Assembly: GCA_943330235.2 (NCBI GenBank)
Contig: CALQGY020000011.1
Coordinates: 1 to 56,955, forward strand
Reading direction: 5' to 3'
Source of the DNA: Candidatus Kuenenia stuttgartensis
GTDB lineage: Bacteria > Gemmatimonadota > Gemmatimonadetes > Gemmatimonadales > Gemmatimonadaceae
DNA length: 56,955 bases
In this document: positions 3,783-49,269 of the stretch, piece after piece
Layout of the letters: each line of letters opens with the position of its first letter
Position numbering within the stretch: the first letter of the stretch is position 1
Notes under the pieces: generated by a model
What the model was told of the DNA's origin: nothing
Seen by the model: only the letters and a program-made list of their open reading frames with translations
The model's database searches: none
Made by a program: the position numbers and the translations under genes

Positions 3783-4601
3783 ATGCCGCGCATGCGTGGC
3801 GCTCGGTGGAGCGCGGCCTCGACGGCGACCGTAATGATGGCGGTATTGCTGGTGGCGGCGCTGATCGCGCCGTTGGTCGCGCCGTTCGCCATGGATGCGC
3901 TGGATCTCGCGCATCGACGCGCCGCGCCCTCGATGACGCACTGGTTCGGCACGGATGAACTGGGGCGTGATCTGCTGACGCGTGTGCTCTTCGGCGCGCG
4001 CGTGTCGCTGGCTATCGGTCTGGTGTCGGCGGCGATGAGTGTGGCCATTGGCGTCGCGGTGGGTGCGACCGCCGGCTACGCGCGGGGATGGACGGACGAT
4101 CTGCTCATGCGCGCCACCGATGCGATGCTGTGCATTCCGCGACTGCCGCTGCTCATGATTGCCGCGGCGTTCCTCCACCCCGGCGTGCCCCTGTTGGTGG
4201 CGCTGGTGGGCGTGGTGGGGTGGATGGAGACGGCGCGCGTGGTGCGGACGTCGGTGCAATCGCTGGCCACGCGCGACTTCGTTACCGCGGCGCGCGCAAC
4301 GGGGGTGACTTCGCTGCGCGTGTTGGTGCGACACGTGCTCCCGGGTGTGGTGCCCGTGGCGACGGTAGCCACGACCTTAGCGATTGGTCGTGGCATTCTG
4401 TTGGAAAGTGCGCTGAGCTTTTTCGGTGTGGGCGTGCAGCCGCCCACCGCCAGTTGGGGCAACATGTTGTATCAGGCGCAAAGCACCATGACCAGCGAAC
4501 CGTGGCTGGCCATCTTCCCCGGGCTGATGATTTTCATCACCGTGCTCTCCTGCAACGCCGTTGGCGACGCCCTCGGCGCCTCACCGACGGCACGGTCGTA
4601 G
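3783..4601 (+). CDS. ABC transporter permease, DppC/OppC type
   Basis: A 272-residue inner-membrane permease that should pair with the preceding DppB-type protein. Hallmarks are the HWFGTDELGRDLLTRVLFGAR segment near residues 52-72, the EAA loop (ATRDFVTAARATG, near residues 163-175), and the C-terminal ESALSFFGVG and PPTASWGNML motifs. It begins with no gap after the upstream permease. The operon ends here: the next gene is on the other strand, so the one or two ATPase subunits such importers need are not encoded in this window. They may lie upstream of base 1, or a shared ATPase may be used. About 110 bases downstream hold no recognisable feature. Confidence 0.93.
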   Translation: MPRMRGARWSAASTATVMMAVLLVAALIAPLVAPFAMDALDLAHRRAAPSMTHWFGTDELGRDLLTRVLFGARVSLAIGLVSAAMSVAIGVAVGATAGYARGWTDDLLMRATDAMLCIPRLPLLMIAAAFLHPGVPLLVALVGVVGWMETARVVRTSVQSLATRDFVTAARATGVTSLRVLVRHVLPGVVPVATVATTLAIGRGILLESALSFFGVGVQPPTASWGNMLYQAQSTMTSEPWLAIFPGLMIFITVLSCNAVGDALGASPTARS

Positions 4602-43946: not shown

Positions 43947-45809
43947 ATGACGCTTCCCGTGCGTTTCGTTCGTCCGCGCGCCGTGCTGGCCGTGCTGAGC
44001 ACCCTCGTCGCGCTTGCCGGATGCGGTGGGGGCGGTACCAAAAGCATTGTTGCCCCCGTCCCTCCGCGCGAGTCCGTCGCGGCCGTTGACGTCACGCCGA
44101 ACGTGACGACGCTGGCCCCGGGAGCGACGGCCACGCTCAGCGCGGCGGTGCGTGGATCGTCGGGCGCGGCGCTCAGCGGGCGCGTGGTCACGTGGTCCTC
44201 CTCGTCACCCGCCGTCGCGTCGGTCTCGGTGGCCGGGGTCGTCACCGGCGTCGCCGAGGGCACCACGACCGTGTCGGCCACCAGCGAGGGGCAGGCCGGC
44301 TTCGCCACCATTACGGTGCGGACCCCGGTGGCGTCCGTGGTACTGACGCCGCCCGCCGCGTCGCTGGCCCAAGGCGCCACGCAGCTGTTCAGCGCCAGCG
44401 CGCGCGATGCCGCCGGTGCGCCCCTCACGGGACGCGCGGTCACGTGGACGAGCAGCAACAGCCAGGTGGCCAGCGTCAGCGCCGCCGGATTGGTGACGGC
44501 GGTGGCGTTGGGATCGGCCGTTATTTCCGCGACCATCGAGAACATCACCAGCAGCGCCGCGCTCAGCGTGACACCCGTGGCCGTCGCGACGGTGACCTTG
44601 TCACCGAGCGCGTTCACCGCGTTGGTCGGCGCCTCGCAGGCCGTGGTCGCCACCGCAAAAGATGCTGGTGGCAGCGTGATCGCAGGGCGCACCATCACGT
44701 GGAGTTCGAGCAGCGCGGCCATCGCGACCGTGAGTAGCGCGGGCGTGGTCACCGGCGTCGGGGCGGGGAGCGCCACCATCTCAGCGTCCGTCGATGGGGT
44801 GATCGGCACCTCGACCGCCACCATTACGGCCATCCCCGTCGCATCCCTGACGCTCTCGCCGTCCAGTGCGTCCGTGGTGGAAGGGAATGTGGTGGCGTTG
44901 GTCGCGACGCCGCGCGATGCCAACGGCGCCGCGCTGACCGGGCGCGCGGTGTCGTGGACGAGCAGCGCCCCGTCGGTGGCGACGGTGAATAGCACCGGCG
45001 GCGTGACTGGTGTGAGTGCTGGTGCGACGATCATCACGGCCACGGTGGAAGGCCGCAGCGCCACCGCGGCCATCAGCGTCCGCAGCGCGTCGGCCGAACC
45101 GGTGATCGTGAGCACGTCGCTGACGGCCGGTGACACGACGCAGCGGGTGGTGGTGGTGACCGGGCCGGGCGCGACCGTGCAGCCCGCGCTCTTGGTCAAG
45201 AACGCGGCCGGCGTCACGCTCCCGGCGACCGCGGTGCGGTGGACCGCGCGTGATCCGTCGCGCGCGACCGTATCGAGCACGGGGCTCATTACTGGCGTGC
45301 AGGGCGGGCGGACGTTTGTGGTGGCGGAGTCCAACACCAACAGCGCCGTCAGCGATTCGCTGTTGGTGTTCGTACCGGCCAACAGTTCCGGGCCGCTGCT
45401 GCGCACCGCGTCAACGGCCTATCGCCTCGTCGCGACCGACACGTTCTCCATCACCGTGCAAGTGGAGATGCGCGACGGCAAGCTCTTGAGCGCGGCCGAC
45501 TTCGAGATCGCCTGGCCGGGTTCGTCGGCGTCGCCGTACGATCCGTTCACCGTGACCTCGGTGACCACGTTGCGCGCGGGCGTGGTGCTGTCTTCACTCG
45601 GGGCCGACTTCTCGGAGGCGGCGCGCGTGACGTTTGCCACCACGACGCCGGTGGGCGGCACCGTTGCCCTCATCCGCCTCAATTGCCGCGTGCGCACCCG
45701 CAACGCCGCCAATCAGATCGTGCTGACACTCAATGAGTTAGTGGATAGCTCGTTGGCGCGGCTCACGACGTCGGCCAGCACCTTCAACCCTGTGGTGATC
45801 ATCCGGTGA
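43947..45809 (+). CDS. Lipoprotein with Big2 Ig-like repeats and C-terminal cohesin-like domain
   Basis: A 620-residue surface lipoprotein (lipobox LVALAGC, then a Gly tract). Four regular bacterial Ig-like group 2 repeats of about 80 residues (about 44-124, 127-207, 211-291, 295-375) each carry VTW[ST]SS...VASVS..G.VTGV. A fifth, more divergent one spans about 380-470. Residues about 486-620 look like a cohesin: a strand DTFSITVQVEM, then LSAADFEIAWPG, FTVTSVT, RVTFATTTPVGG, ALIRLNCRV and a closing LTLNELVDS. The Big2 array would act as a stalk holding the cohesin away from the membrane. Its stop overlaps the next start (GTGA, 45806-45809), and the operon's last gene ends in a dockerin. The cohesin call is by pattern only. 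Confidence 0.85.
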   Translation: MTLPVRFVRPRAVLAVLSTLVALAGCGGGGTKSIVAPVPPRESVAAVDVTPNVTTLAPGATATLSAAVRGSSGAALSGRVVTWSSSSPAVASVSVAGVVTGVAEGTTTVSATSEGQAGFATITVRTPVASVVLTPPAASLAQGATQLFSASARDAAGAPLTGRAVTWTSSNSQVASVSAAGLVTAVALGSAVISATIENITSSAALSVTPVAVATVTLSPSAFTALVGASQAVVATAKDAGGSVIAGRTITWSSSSAAIATVSSAGVVTGVGAGSATISASVDGVIGTSTATITAIPVASLTLSPSSASVVEGNVVALVATPRDANGAALTGRAVSWTSSAPSVATVNSTGGVTGVSAGATIITATVEGRSATAAISVRSASAEPVIVSTSLTAGDTTQRVVVVTGPGATVQPALLVKNAAGVTLPATAVRWTARDPSRATVSSTGLITGVQGGRTFVVAESNTNSAVSDSLLVFVPANSSGPLLRTASTAYRLVATDTFSITVQVEMRDGKLLSAADFEIAWPGSSASPYDPFTVTSVTTLRAGVVLSSLGADFSEAARVTFATTTPVGGTVALIRLNCRVRTRNAANQIVLTLNELVDSSLARLTTSASTFNPVVIIR

Positions 45810-46297
45810 GACATTCCGCCTTCCCGCGACGCCGGCACCTCCTTGCCGTGCTGGCGCTGCTCGCTGGTGTGGCGAGCGGCTGTCAGCGGACCGTTGATGT
45901 GGTCGCGATGCCGCATCCCGCGGGCACGCTGATGGAGCTGCGTCTCGTGGCGACACGACAGGACAGTGCCTCTGTGGCGTTGCACCTCGCGCCCGGCGCG
46001 ACGGCCTCCATTGGCAGCCTGCAAGCGACAATTACCGCGCCGGTGGGATGGCGCTACGTCGGCTGCGAGGCGGGGCAGGGGGCGCCGTTGCTGGCCTGCC
46101 ACGACGTGGACGGCGAGCTTCGGCTGGCCGGCGCGTGGGTGGAAGGGACGCACAGTGGCTCGCTGCTGACCGTGACGTATGTGAAGTCCTCGGGGGTGCC
46201 CGCCATGGCGTGGCAGCTCGCGGTGCAGGATATGCGCGATGCGATGGGCCGGCCGCTCGCCGATTCCATTCGCGTGCGGCGGGAGATCGCACCATGA
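45806..46297 (+). CDS. Small lipoprotein with possible second cohesin-like fold
   Basis: A 163-residue predicted lipoprotein (LLAGVASGC). It starts at GTG overlapping the stop of the Big2 gene and ends overlapping the next start (ATGA). The mature part is an all-beta domain of about 130 residues: LMELRLVATRQDSASVALHL, GSLQATITAPVGW, a GELRLAGAW strand, GSLLTVTYVKSSG, and WQLAVQDMRDAMGRPL. This order (long strands, a middle G-x-L-x-L-A-x-W, then a closing strand with D-x-x-G) resembles cohesin-like beta sandwiches. Two internal Cys (near GCEAG and LACHD) may form a disulfide. Assignment is tentative; the lipoprotein call is firmer. Confidence 0.7.
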   Translation: MRHSAFPRRRHLLAVLALLAGVASGCQRTVDVVAMPHPAGTLMELRLVATRQDSASVALHLAPGATASIGSLQATITAPVGWRYVGCEAGQGAPLLACHDVDGELRLAGAWVEGTHSGSLLTVTYVKSSGVPAMAWQLAVQDMRDAMGRPLADSIRVRREIAP

Positions 46298-46695
46298 GCC
46301 GCCTGGCGTCTGGCTCCTCGCGATGGCTACTGACCGCCGCGCTGGCGGTGCCGGCAACGGCCATGGCAACGGCCTGTCGTACCGCGGCGCCGCAGCTGAC
46401 GGCGCTCACGCCGACCACCGCCGATGTCTCGCGCGGCGAATTGGTGGAAGTGGTGATCGCCGGGCGTGGGTTTACCGCGATGAATACGGTGCACTTCGGT
46501 CCCGTGGTGTTGGTGCAGGTCCCGCGTCGGTCGGACCGCGAATTGCGCTTTATGGTGCCGCTGGATGACACGCAGCAGCCGGGGCGCGGCGAAGCGCCGC
46601 CGTTGCCGCTGCCGGCGGGCACGTACCGCGTGACCGTGACCACCGCGCGCGGCACCTCCAACGCGCTGCCGTTTCAACTGGGAGTGTTGCGATGA
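46294..46695 (+). CDS. IPT/TIG (Ig-like) domain exported protein
   Basis: A 133-residue exported protein. The N-terminal hydrophobic segment ends in MATAC, which may be a lipobox. One IPT/TIG domain fills the rest: LTALTPTTADVSRGELVEVVIAGRGF, then NTVHFGPV and a closing LPAGTYRVTVTTARGTSNALPFQL. Such domains fold as immunoglobulin-like sandwiches and usually mediate binding on surface proteins. It overlaps the genes on both sides by four bases (ATGA), so it is locked into the four-gene unit. It might be an additional anchor or spacer for the dockerin protein. The domain call is good; its role is inferred. Confidence 0.78.
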   Translation: MSRLASGSSRWLLTAALAVPATAMATACRTAAPQLTALTPTTADVSRGELVEVVIAGRGFTAMNTVHFGPVVLVQVPRRSDRELRFMVPLDDTQQPGRGEAPPLPLPAGTYRVTVTTARGTSNALPFQLGVLR

Positions 46696-49187
46696 CTGGT
46701 GTGCGCCTGTTCAGCGCCGTTCCCCGTCGTGTGCTCGCGACGCTCGCGTGCGCGGTGCTGCCCGTCGTCGCGCACGCACAGCGGCCGCCCGTCCAGCGCG
46801 AGGCCGACAGTGATGTGCGGCGTCGCGCGCTCATCGAGCTGTGGGATGCGATCCCCGGCTCCGAAGAGCCGCGCTCCGGCGCGACCTTTGCCGCCTGGCT
46901 GCGAGAGCAGCCGCGCATGGCCGCGATCTCCGTCCCCGTCCCCGTGCCCGGCGTCTGGTCGTCGATCGGGCCGCTGGGCTTCTACGGCGACAATGGGTTC
47001 TTCGGTTCGCTGCCGCAGCTGGATGCGGGGCGCGTGCCCACGGTGGCCTTCCATCCGACGGAGCGCAACACACTCTTTGTCGGCACGGCCGCCGGTGGCG
47101 TCTGGAAGAGCACCAACGAAGGCGCCTCGTGGGTACCGCTCACCGATGGGCAGTGCTCGCTGGTGATCGGCAATCTGGCCATCGATCCGGTCACCCCCAA
47201 CATCATCTACGCCGGCACCGGCGAACCGTCCGAAGCCACCTACGGCTGCGGCGTGTTGCGCAGTATCGATGGCGGCACCTCGTGGACCAACATCGCGACC
47301 GCGCCGTTTGTCGTCGGCACAGCGGTGCCGTCGGTGTTCTATGGCTTGCTGGTCGATCGGGCCTCGGCGGGGTCGGCCAGCACGACGACGCTGGTGGCCG
47401 CCACGAACACCGGCATCTACCGCTCGGTGAACTCGGGGCAGGCGTGGACGCTGGTGTCGCCGGCGCTGACGTTCAGCGACATCGTACAGCACCCCACCAA
47501 TCCGAACATCATGTACGCGGCGCGCCGCGGCGTAAGCGGCAGCACCACGCCGGGCGGCCTCTGGCGCTCGCAAGATCGCGGCGCGACGTGGGCAGCGTTG
47601 TCGGCCTTCCCCGCGGACTCGGTGGGACGCATTGAGATTGCCGTGTCGCGCGCGAAGCCCGGATCGGTGTGGCTGCTCGCGTCGGCGCCCAACTCGACGT
47701 TTGGCGGCTTATACCGCTGGGATGATTCCACCGCGACGCGTACCACGCTGGCCGCCTCCGGCGTGAATGCGCCCCCGGCCGTGGCCAACCGCAACAACTT
47801 TGGCGGCCAGGGCAACTACGATCTGATGATCGCCCTCGATCAGGCCAACCCCGACAATATTTTTGTCGGCGGCGTGCGCGCGTATCGATCCAAAGACGGC
47901 GGCACCACGTTCCAGGAAATCGCGATGAACATTCATTGCGACTGGCATGTGATTCTGGTCGATCCGTCGGACGCCCGTCGCGTGCTGGCCGGCAGCGACG
48001 GCGGCGCGTTTCTGTCGCGCGATGGCGGTGACGCGTTCCAGTCAATCAACGCGGGGCTCGCCACCACGCTGCACTACGCGGGGCTGTCGCTGCATCCCAC
48101 CGATCCGACCGGCATCCTCACCGGCATGCAGGACAACGGGACCATCATTGCGCGCAACGGCATGACGCAGTGGAACGGCGTATTCGGCGGCGATGGGGCC
48201 TTCACCGCCATCAACCCCAACACGCCCACGACGTACTACGTCTCCAGTCAGAACGGCAATCTCGTGCGCGCCAATGCGCTGACCGGTTCCTTGGTGACGG
48301 TGACCAACGGTATTCCGTCGTCCACCACCGAGCGGCGTGCGTTCATCGCGCCCTTTGTCGTTGATGCCACGCGCCCCACGCGCCTCTACTTCGGCGGCGC
48401 GCGCCTCTTCCGCACGGAGAACGAGGGCGCGCTCTGGAACGCCATCACCACCGACCTCACGCGCGGTACCGGCACCATTTCCGCCATCGCGCTGGCGCCG
48501 TCTGATTCCAACACCATCTACGTCGGGACCAGTGATGCCAACGTGAAAGTCAGTCGCGACTTCGGCGTCACGTGGAACGGCACCTCGGCCACGCTGCCGT
48601 CGCGCGCCGTAGGCGACTTCGCGGTCGATCGACAGGATGCGGCGAAAGCGGTGGTGACGTTTACCAGCAGTGGCACGGGCCACGTGTATCTCACGCGTGA
48701 CGGTGGTGAGTCGTGGACCAACATCACCGGCACGCTGCCTGATGTGGCCACCCAGGCCGCCGCGTGGGGCCCCAACGGGCGGCTCTTCATCGGCAATATG
48801 TACGGCGTCTATTCAAGCCCCGATCTCGGGGTGACGTGGACGCGCGAGTCGGGGGTGCCGTGGATCCGCGTGACGGATCTGGTCTACAACGAGACCACGA
48901 AGCGGCTGGTCGCCGCCACGTACGGACGCGGCATCTGGTCGTACGACTTCAACACCGCGTCCGCCGTGCGGCGTGGCGATGTGAACGGCGACGGCGTGGT
49001 GAACGCCGCCGACGCGCTCATTATTCAGCAGGCCCTCGTGGGCCTGTCGGTGCAGCCCGCGAACACGGTGTTCCCCAATGGCGATGCCAATTGCGATGGC
49101 GCGCTCACCATTCTCGATGCGCTGCACGTGCTGCGCTTTGCCGTGGGCGACGCGCCGGTGGGGTCGTGCGTGGGTACGGTGCGCTGA
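46692..49187 (+). CDS. Secreted BNR/sortilin-type beta-propeller protein with C-terminal type-I dockerin
   Basis: An 831-residue secreted protein. The signal peptide ends near VVAHAQR. Residues about 90-755 are a double propeller built from BNR/Asp-box repeats (STNEGASW, SIDGGTSW, SVNSGQAW, SQDRGATW, SKDGGTTF, SRDFGVTW, TRDGGESW), like sialidase, xyloglucanase and VPS10-type propellers; no catalytic residues can be assigned. From residue about 762 (DNA near 48975) follows a complete dockerin: DVNGDGVVNAAD, then DANCDGALTILD, each with Asp/Asn/Asp/Asp calcium ligands at positions 1, 3, 5 and 12. The upstream co-translated lipoproteins carry cohesin-like domains, the expected binding partners. 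A strong bidirectional terminator follows. Confidence 0.9.
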   Translation: MTGVRLFSAVPRRVLATLACAVLPVVAHAQRPPVQREADSDVRRRALIELWDAIPGSEEPRSGATFAAWLREQPRMAAISVPVPVPGVWSSIGPLGFYGDNGFFGSLPQLDAGRVPTVAFHPTERNTLFVGTAAGGVWKSTNEGASWVPLTDGQCSLVIGNLAIDPVTPNIIYAGTGEPSEATYGCGVLRSIDGGTSWTNIATAPFVVGTAVPSVFYGLLVDRASAGSASTTTLVAATNTGIYRSVNSGQAWTLVSPALTFSDIVQHPTNPNIMYAARRGVSGSTTPGGLWRSQDRGATWAALSAFPADSVGRIEIAVSRAKPGSVWLLASAPNSTFGGLYRWDDSTATRTTLAASGVNAPPAVANRNNFGGQGNYDLMIALDQANPDNIFVGGVRAYRSKDGGTTFQEIAMNIHCDWHVILVDPSDARRVLAGSDGGAFLSRDGGDAFQSINAGLATTLHYAGLSLHPTDPTGILTGMQDNGTIIARNGMTQWNGVFGGDGAFTAINPNTPTTYYVSSQNGNLVRANALTGSLVTVTNGIPSSTTERRAFIAPFVVDATRPTRLYFGGARLFRTENEGALWNAITTDLTRGTGTISAIALAPSDSNTIYVGTSDANVKVSRDFGVTWNGTSATLPSRAVGDFAVDRQDAAKAVVTFTSSGTGHVYLTRDGGESWTNITGTLPDVATQAAAWGPNGRLFIGNMYGVYSSPDLGVTWTRESGVPWIRVTDLVYNETTKRLVAATYGRGIWSYDFNTASAVRRGDVNGDGVVNAADALIIQQALVGLSVQPANTVFPNGDANCDGALTILDALHVLRFAVGDAPVGSCVGTVR

Positions 49188-49222: not shown

Positions 49223-49269
49223 ACAGAGCCCGGCGCGCATTCGTCTGGCGAATGCACACCGGGCTCTGT
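49223..49269. terminator. Strong bidirectional terminator hairpin
   Basis: An 11-bp perfect outer stem (ACAGAGCCCGG at 49223-49233 with CCGGGCTCTGT at 49259-49269) encloses a 7-bp inner stem (GCATTCG with CGAATGC). It sits exactly between the convergent dockerin and amidase genes and should end both transcripts. Confidence 0.75.

Follow-up and report, generated by a model that had tools for sequence, protein, structure and literature searches.

The question raised by this locus is whether four overlapping genes of a member of the Gemmatimonadota encode a cohesin-dockerin set of their own, and what such a set would do outside a cellulosome. The genes lie in a window of 56,955 nucleotides, by which we mean the whole stretch of DNA that was analyzed. 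This stretch is contig C11 of a genome of 4.02 Mb, assembled in 223 contigs and 91.6% complete, and the named relatives of the last protein come from Gemmatimonas and other Gemmatimonadota.

Gene organization and products of the operon

The features of the locus are as follows.

43947 to 45809, forward strand: gene A, 620 amino acids in translation; predicted lipoprotein with a VALAGC lipobox, Big_2 repeats that form a stalk, and a cohesin-fold domain at the C terminus
45387 to 45806, forward strand: cohesin-fold domain of A, residues 481 to 620
45806 to 46297, forward strand: gene B, 163 amino acids from a GTG start; short predicted lipoprotein made of one cohesin-fold domain, mature part at 45881 to 46294
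46294 to 46695, forward strand: gene C, 133 amino acids; small probable lipoprotein with a lipobox-like Cys and one IPT/TIG-like (CoaZ repeat) domain
46692 to 49187, forward strand: gene D, 831 amino acids; exported BNR/Sortilin-type propeller with a C-terminal dockerin
48975 to 49184, forward strand: dockerin of D, two EF-hand-like repeats and a Cys-bearing tail, with Cys801 in loop 2 and Cys826 in the tail
49223 to 49269, no strand: strong hairpin between D and a converging gene (z score of -4.23; matched or exceeded in stability by 1 of 200 shuffles)

Each gene overlaps the next by 4 bases, GTGA between A and B and ATGA at both the B/C and the C/D junctions. A sequence-only reading had described a four-gene run joined by such stop/start overlaps, and both the genes and the overlaps were confirmed. 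The hairpin, which has no T-run after it, is a possible end of the operon.

Gene A had been described as a lipoprotein with a Big2 stalk, and indeed the lipobox is accompanied by five Big_2 stretches (Pfam, E value of 1.5e-50). The lipobox-like Cys26 of B is invariant across the 23-row alignment of B proteins. The C protein matched the NCBIfam family CoaZ_rpt_PGGG (NF058597) above its cut-off (E value of 7.9e-8) and Pfam TIG slightly below the cut-off (E value of 0.0011), and neither a cohesin nor a dockerin family was matched in the Pfam and NCBIfam scans of C. An earlier proposal that this IPT protein serves as a spacer found no support, as C is itself lipoprotein-like and matches neither partner family. 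By a simple rule, lipobox-like motifs were found in 26 of 33 A, 28 of 33 B, 17 of 26 C, and 3 of 33 D proteins, some of the genes being cut by contig ends. The counts point to A and B being lipoproteins, to C probably being one, and to D as a rule not being one. The signal peptide of D appears by eye to end near AHAQ.

The dockerin of gene D

The Pfam family Dockerin_1 (PF00404) matched residues 762 to 813 of D with 38.0 bits (cut-off of 22.9 bits; E value of 1.9e-9). When the whole genome was scanned, the D dockerin scored 43.1 bits and was the sole one above the cut-off among the four matches listed, the next scoring 18.6 bits. The ligand positions 1, 3, 5, and 12 are occupied by D763, N765, D767, and D774 in repeat 1 and by D798, N800, D802, and D809 in repeat 2. 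A complete two-repeat dockerin had been predicted on the last protein, and both the Pfam score and the ligands in each repeat bear this out.

Positions 10 and 11 are Ala-Ala in repeat 1 and Ile-Leu in repeat 2, the very residues from which an asymmetric dockerin had been argued. In the 33 operons that encode A, B, and a propeller with a dockerin, every dockerin has Ala at position 10 of repeat 1, whereas positions 10 and 11 of repeat 2 hold 16 different pairs in the 32 complete dockerins; the two faces are therefore unlike. Such a difference between faces might mean a new specificity. Position 4 of repeat 2 is a Cys in all 32 complete dockerins, and the tail of each contains a second one, a conserved pair that suggests a probable disulfide staple within the domain. 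In loci L034 and L036, which are of the G045/G145 type, repeat 1 is without calcium ligands. The same genomes have two copies of B, of which the second forms a fusion with C (positions 4161 to 5560 in L034).

A and B as divergent cohesins

The Pfam Cohesin family matched neither A nor B of the window, nor any other protein of the genome, even at an E value of 10. Since direct Pfam profiles fail for A and B, relatives were gathered for family alignments. A first set from a family search comprised 15 loci, 11 of them with the operon (one with D cut by a contig end); the remaining four (L031, L035, L038, and L039) have no such operon and were taken as chance B matches. A second set, of 22 loci (L040 to L061) out of the 79 that a scan with D returned, consists of 21 from Gemmatimonadota and one labelled only "bacterium." The alignments have 23 rows for B (A2) and 22 rows for the A domain (A3).

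Compared with each other as profiles, A2 and A3 matched with 95.6% probability over 107 columns. Against PDB sequences, A3 gave eight hits, including the cohesins 5m2o, 5aoz, and 2xdh at weak E values of 0.015, 0.025, and 0.37, respectively. A2 gave nine hits with no cohesins; most were artificial or HEAT-type alpha-repeat proteins, and the nine were read as chance or composition matches. A single B relative gave two hits, again with no cohesins, and the B profile also found short N-terminal matches at E values of 0.006 to 0.01.

Structure prediction had been proposed as the check on the first and second proteins, and both models retrieved PDB cohesins at the top ranks. The best of five AF2 models of the A domain had a pLDDT of 91.1 and a pTM of 0.85, with two of the five at 66 to 67, and the model of B had a pLDDT of 87.7 and a pTM of 0.79. 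When the PDB was searched with Foldseek, ranks 1 to 32 for the A domain were cohesins or cohesin-bearing scaffoldin chains (best E value of 3.4e-8, TM score of 0.75). Ranks 1 to 20 for B were likewise cohesins or cohesin-bearing chains, the best being 2xdh (E value of 5.5e-7, TM score of 0.70). Judged by these top ranks, both models have the nine-strand jelly-roll fold of cohesins, at a sequence identity of 5 to 16% to the PDB cohesins in the two lists. We take the sheet of strands 8-3-6-5 to be the dockerin-binding face of a cohesin. In B, the strands at 79 to 90 and 44 to 52 are the most conserved; A shows no contrast among its strands.

Relatives of A and B do reach the Pfam family directly. 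Cohesin was matched at an E value of 0.05 or better by 4 of the 23 members of the B alignment and 3 of the 22 A members, and A-type domains, B-type domains, or both scored above the cut-off in nine genomes (G045, G145, G069, G109, G353, G305, G158, G324, and G174), the B domains in G305 and G158. G045 and G145 have the gene order of the window plus an extra B, and the other seven have second-type or expanded loci. The match to cohesin profiles anticipated by the sequence-only reading was thus found for relatives, which exceed the Pfam cut-off, but not for A and B of the window themselves. Because of the profile cross-match, the fold models, and the Pfam-positive relatives, we conclude that the C-terminal domain of A and the B protein, as modeled, are both divergent cohesins.

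Genomic pairing of cohesins and dockerins

The A-domain profile gave at least 56 matches in at least 42 of the 395 genomes of the phylum; the 42 are a lower bound because the best 10 candidates were scored per genome, in that of the window the best 10 of 30. All 56 neighborhoods were examined with a dockerin profile (A1) made from 11 D dockerins, at thresholds of E 0.01 and 0.001, and 51 contained a dockerin on the same strand 4 to 4,090 bases away. These 51 include the L027 dockerin that is cut by a contig end, at least one B-type domain (G132), and places where cohesin and dockerin share one reading frame. For four of the five dockerin-less matches, the contig ends less than 2.3 kb downstream. 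The other, a weak match in G380 (E value of 2.5e-4), has 32 kb of contig downstream, with no dockerin in the stretch examined. Three genomes of the genus (G069, G109, and G385) have two A matches each, and a dockerin lies on each of the same two contigs. Of 24 loci, 23 have B and 21 have C within 1.6 kb downstream of A.

Among the 30 genomes of the genus, Dockerin_1 was found in 23 and B in 21. Twenty have both, six neither, three the dockerin only, and one B only, giving a Fisher p value of 0.0009 that is optimistic because close relatives are not independent. A local scan showed a divergent B near the dockerin in two of the dockerin-only genomes (G127 and G146), and in the third (G343) D runs to the contig end; the genome with B only is G415. 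B and the dockerin lie on separate contigs in G121 and G339, and the dockerin of G339 is a borderline partial match (23.2 bits) that the A1 profile missed in L198.

The pairing of cohesin and dockerin is more than chance. Conservation of the gene order in related genomes had been put forward as a check, and homologous loci do keep the lipoproteins and the dockerin together. The central claim of the sequence-only reading, a cohesin-dockerin set in one operon, is upheld by the cohesin folds, the Pfam-positive relatives, and the close pairing in 51 of 56 cases. The genome of the window, at 91.6% completeness, has one dockerin above the cut-off, one A match (best 10 of 30 candidates), and one B match. 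A cellulosome was rejected on these counts, neither a scaffoldin nor a set of enzymes to go with it being seen, and the bacterium appears non-cellulosomal, as had been supposed. Cohesin and dockerin proteins are paired in this genome, as we would expect of a non-cellulosomal system.

Other loci in the phylum

Other families of the order have loci (L159, L153, L154, and L157) in which large proteins, as many as four at one locus, come after A and B and start with a cohesin-dockerin tandem. L162 is a locus of the same kind, alone on a short contig, and the set comes from G158, G305, G353, G324, and G174. Six of the seven tandem or neighboring proteins scanned continue into right-handed beta-helix (NosD-like) regions. 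Chains could form from proteins that carry a plug as well as a socket.

Distant members of the phylum (family f11; G148, G150, G151, G153, and G155) have 6 to 11 Pfam cohesin matches each, several of them within a single reading frame, such as four in 1,168 amino acids at G155:C135. These genomes look like they encode true multi-cohesin scaffoldins. In L179, L180, and L152, a weak cohesin-like match (E value of 1e-4 to 1e-3) immediately precedes the dockerin in the same protein. G347, a member of the genus (L156, L158, L163, L195, and L196), has nine dockerin matches on five contigs, and its locus L156 contains a gene with an A-type domain flanked by two propeller-like ends with dockerins.

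The propeller and its C-terminal tail

The D protein matched Pfam Sortilin-Vps10 with 98.4 bits (E value of 5.5e-28), and BNR was also matched. Related propellers occur in other phyla, mainly Bacteroidota, and are 24 to 33% identical to D. Among 49 complete propeller relatives (L062 to L118), 35 have a YPNP-like tail and 14 do not. When every fourth of the 35 motif-bearing tails was scanned, Por_Secre_tail was above the cut-off in eight of the nine. Sorting tails of the type IX system on the propeller relatives suggest that such propellers are anchored. The dockerin of D starts where the sorting tails of the relatives start, directly after the propeller match, which fits anchoring as well; D ends in the dockerin, and no sorting tail is visible in it. 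By eye, two propeller relatives, L115 (Phycisphaerales) and L086 (Sulfidibacter), have Asp-rich, EF-hand-like tails that are possibly dockerin-like.

A predicted display module and its alternatives

We consider it likely that the operon of genes A to D encodes a self-contained cohesin-dockerin display module, a prediction that builds on features computed directly: the presence of a dockerin, the resemblance of A and B to cohesins in fold and homology, and close genomic pairing. A and B would be exported as lipoproteins that each present one cohesin, with that of A topping a long Ig-like stalk and that of B lying near the membrane. D would be exported via its Sec signal peptide and then captured through the C-terminal dockerin, presumably with calcium. 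The dockerin would thereby replace the type IX sorting tail that many Bacteroidota propellers of this family bear. We infer that the dockerin binds A, B, or both, that the docking depends on calcium, and that the complex is located on the outer surface.

The choice between A and B was approached through covariation. Distance matrices from the 33 operons that contain A, B, and a dockerin-bearing propeller were compared after the propeller had been regressed out, near-identical operons having been thinned to 30 (with the truncated L027) or 29 (without it). The dockerin covaried with A (partial r of 0.24, p of 0.001 in 30 operons; 0.28, p of 0.0005 in 29), and the whole dockerin did not covary significantly with B (0.08, p of 0.15 in 30 operons; 0.12, p of 0.098 in 29). 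In the 29 operons, repeat 2 covaried with both A (partial r of 0.28) and B (0.27, p of 0.0015), and repeat 1 did so weakly with A (0.18, p of 0.029) and gave -0.11 with B. Covariation thus appears to back, modestly, an A-dockerin contact better than a B-dockerin one.

The dockerin may bind one of the two only, most likely A, with B employed otherwise, for instance as a periplasmic escort that holds the dockerin of D until A takes over or as an independent adhesin. We give this a real but lesser chance. It would fit the short, membrane-proximal form of B and the whole-dockerin covariation, significant for A alone, but repeat 2 covaries with B too, B comes after A in 23 of 24 loci, and B accompanies the dockerin in most genomes of the genus. 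A bolder scheme, which we find attractive yet doubtful, has one dockerin with two unequal faces serving the cohesins of both A and B, the propeller being handed from B to A or bridging both, such that a three-protein device would have taken over type IX anchoring.

The location of the complex bears on a further alternative. Lipoproteins usually face the periplasm, and the complex could be real but periplasmic, with D held there; its termination in a dockerin in place of a sorting tail would agree with that. The Ig-like repeat stalk of A and the sorting tails of the propeller relatives suit the surface instead, and we regard a periplasmic complex as rather unlikely.

It is improbable that the cohesin-fold domains of A and B bind carbohydrate or matrix, with the dockerin being only a calcium-stabilized tail: cellulose-binding domains do appear lower down in the Foldseek lists of A and B, but the close pairing in 51 of 56 cases, the paired duplicates, and the shared absence of B and dockerin speak for partners. 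Hardly credible at all is D as a GH74-like xyloglucanase docked in cellulosome style, for although GH74 enzymes are its best PDB sequence relatives (E value of 7e-14), the similarity lies in the propeller blades, the first-blade Asp (TDIGG) that we take to be catalytic in GH74, present in 5fkr and 5fkt and Ala in 5fkq and 2cn3, is aligned with an Ala in D, on which ground a xyloglucanase identity was rejected, and a single dockerin above the cut-off in a 91.6% complete genome means that no set of docked enzymes is seen.

Relation to known systems and implications

Cohesins and dockerins outside cellulosomes were reportedly described by Peer et al. in 2009. The operon of genes A to D is a compact variant of such non-cellulosomal systems, with very divergent cohesins. 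In the structure comparison with the PDB, the non-cellulosomal cohesin 2xdh of Archaeoglobus fulgidus ranks first for B and fifth for A. The present set differs from non-cellulosomal proteins of that kind in having two lipoprotein cohesins and a dockerin in one operon, and in that the cohesins of the window fall below Pfam detection. With the type I, II, and III pairs of cellulosomes it shares the cohesin fold and a two-loop dockerin with ligands at positions 1, 3, 5, and 12; it differs from them in the conserved Cys of dockerin loop 2 and tail and in cohesins that are only 5 to 16% identical to PDB ones. The Bacteroidota-type propellers belong to the same family as D but have a C-terminal type IX sorting domain in place of the dockerin.

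A scaffoldin of Candidatus Stygibacter (Cloacimonadota) comprises 3,755 amino acids; it has cohesins in tandem and a C-terminal domain for attachment, and enzymes dock on it (PMC8542988). That system, too, lies outside the clostridia and has a cohesin protein that takes up dockerin cargo, whereas the cohesins of the window are on single-cohesin lipoproteins. For ANME archaea and their sulfate-reducing partners, cohesin/dockerin proteins, among them ones with adjacent cohesin/dockerin domains, have been proposed to act in surface attachment or adhesion (PMC9012536, PMC10553843). The organisms and the cargo are different there, and several proteins are involved as opposed to one closed operon. 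In the titles and abstract openings searched, largely from outside subscription journals, no such operon was described in Gemmatimonadota. Four things look new: the compact combination of two single-cohesin lipoproteins with one dockerin, how far the cohesins have diverged, the phylum, and the exchange of one tail for another.

If the prediction is true, this is a very small complete natural cohesin-dockerin set. As its candidate partners are in one operon, the assignment of partners is directly testable, which is hard in cellulosomes with their dozens of modules. The dockerin, being asymmetric, probably stapled by a disulfide, and provided with two candidate cohesins, might also be useful in protein assembly. 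Since these cohesins escape standard profiles, systems of this kind may be under-counted. For the propeller family, the system suggests docking through a dockerin as another way, besides type IX sorting, of displaying the same kind of cargo.
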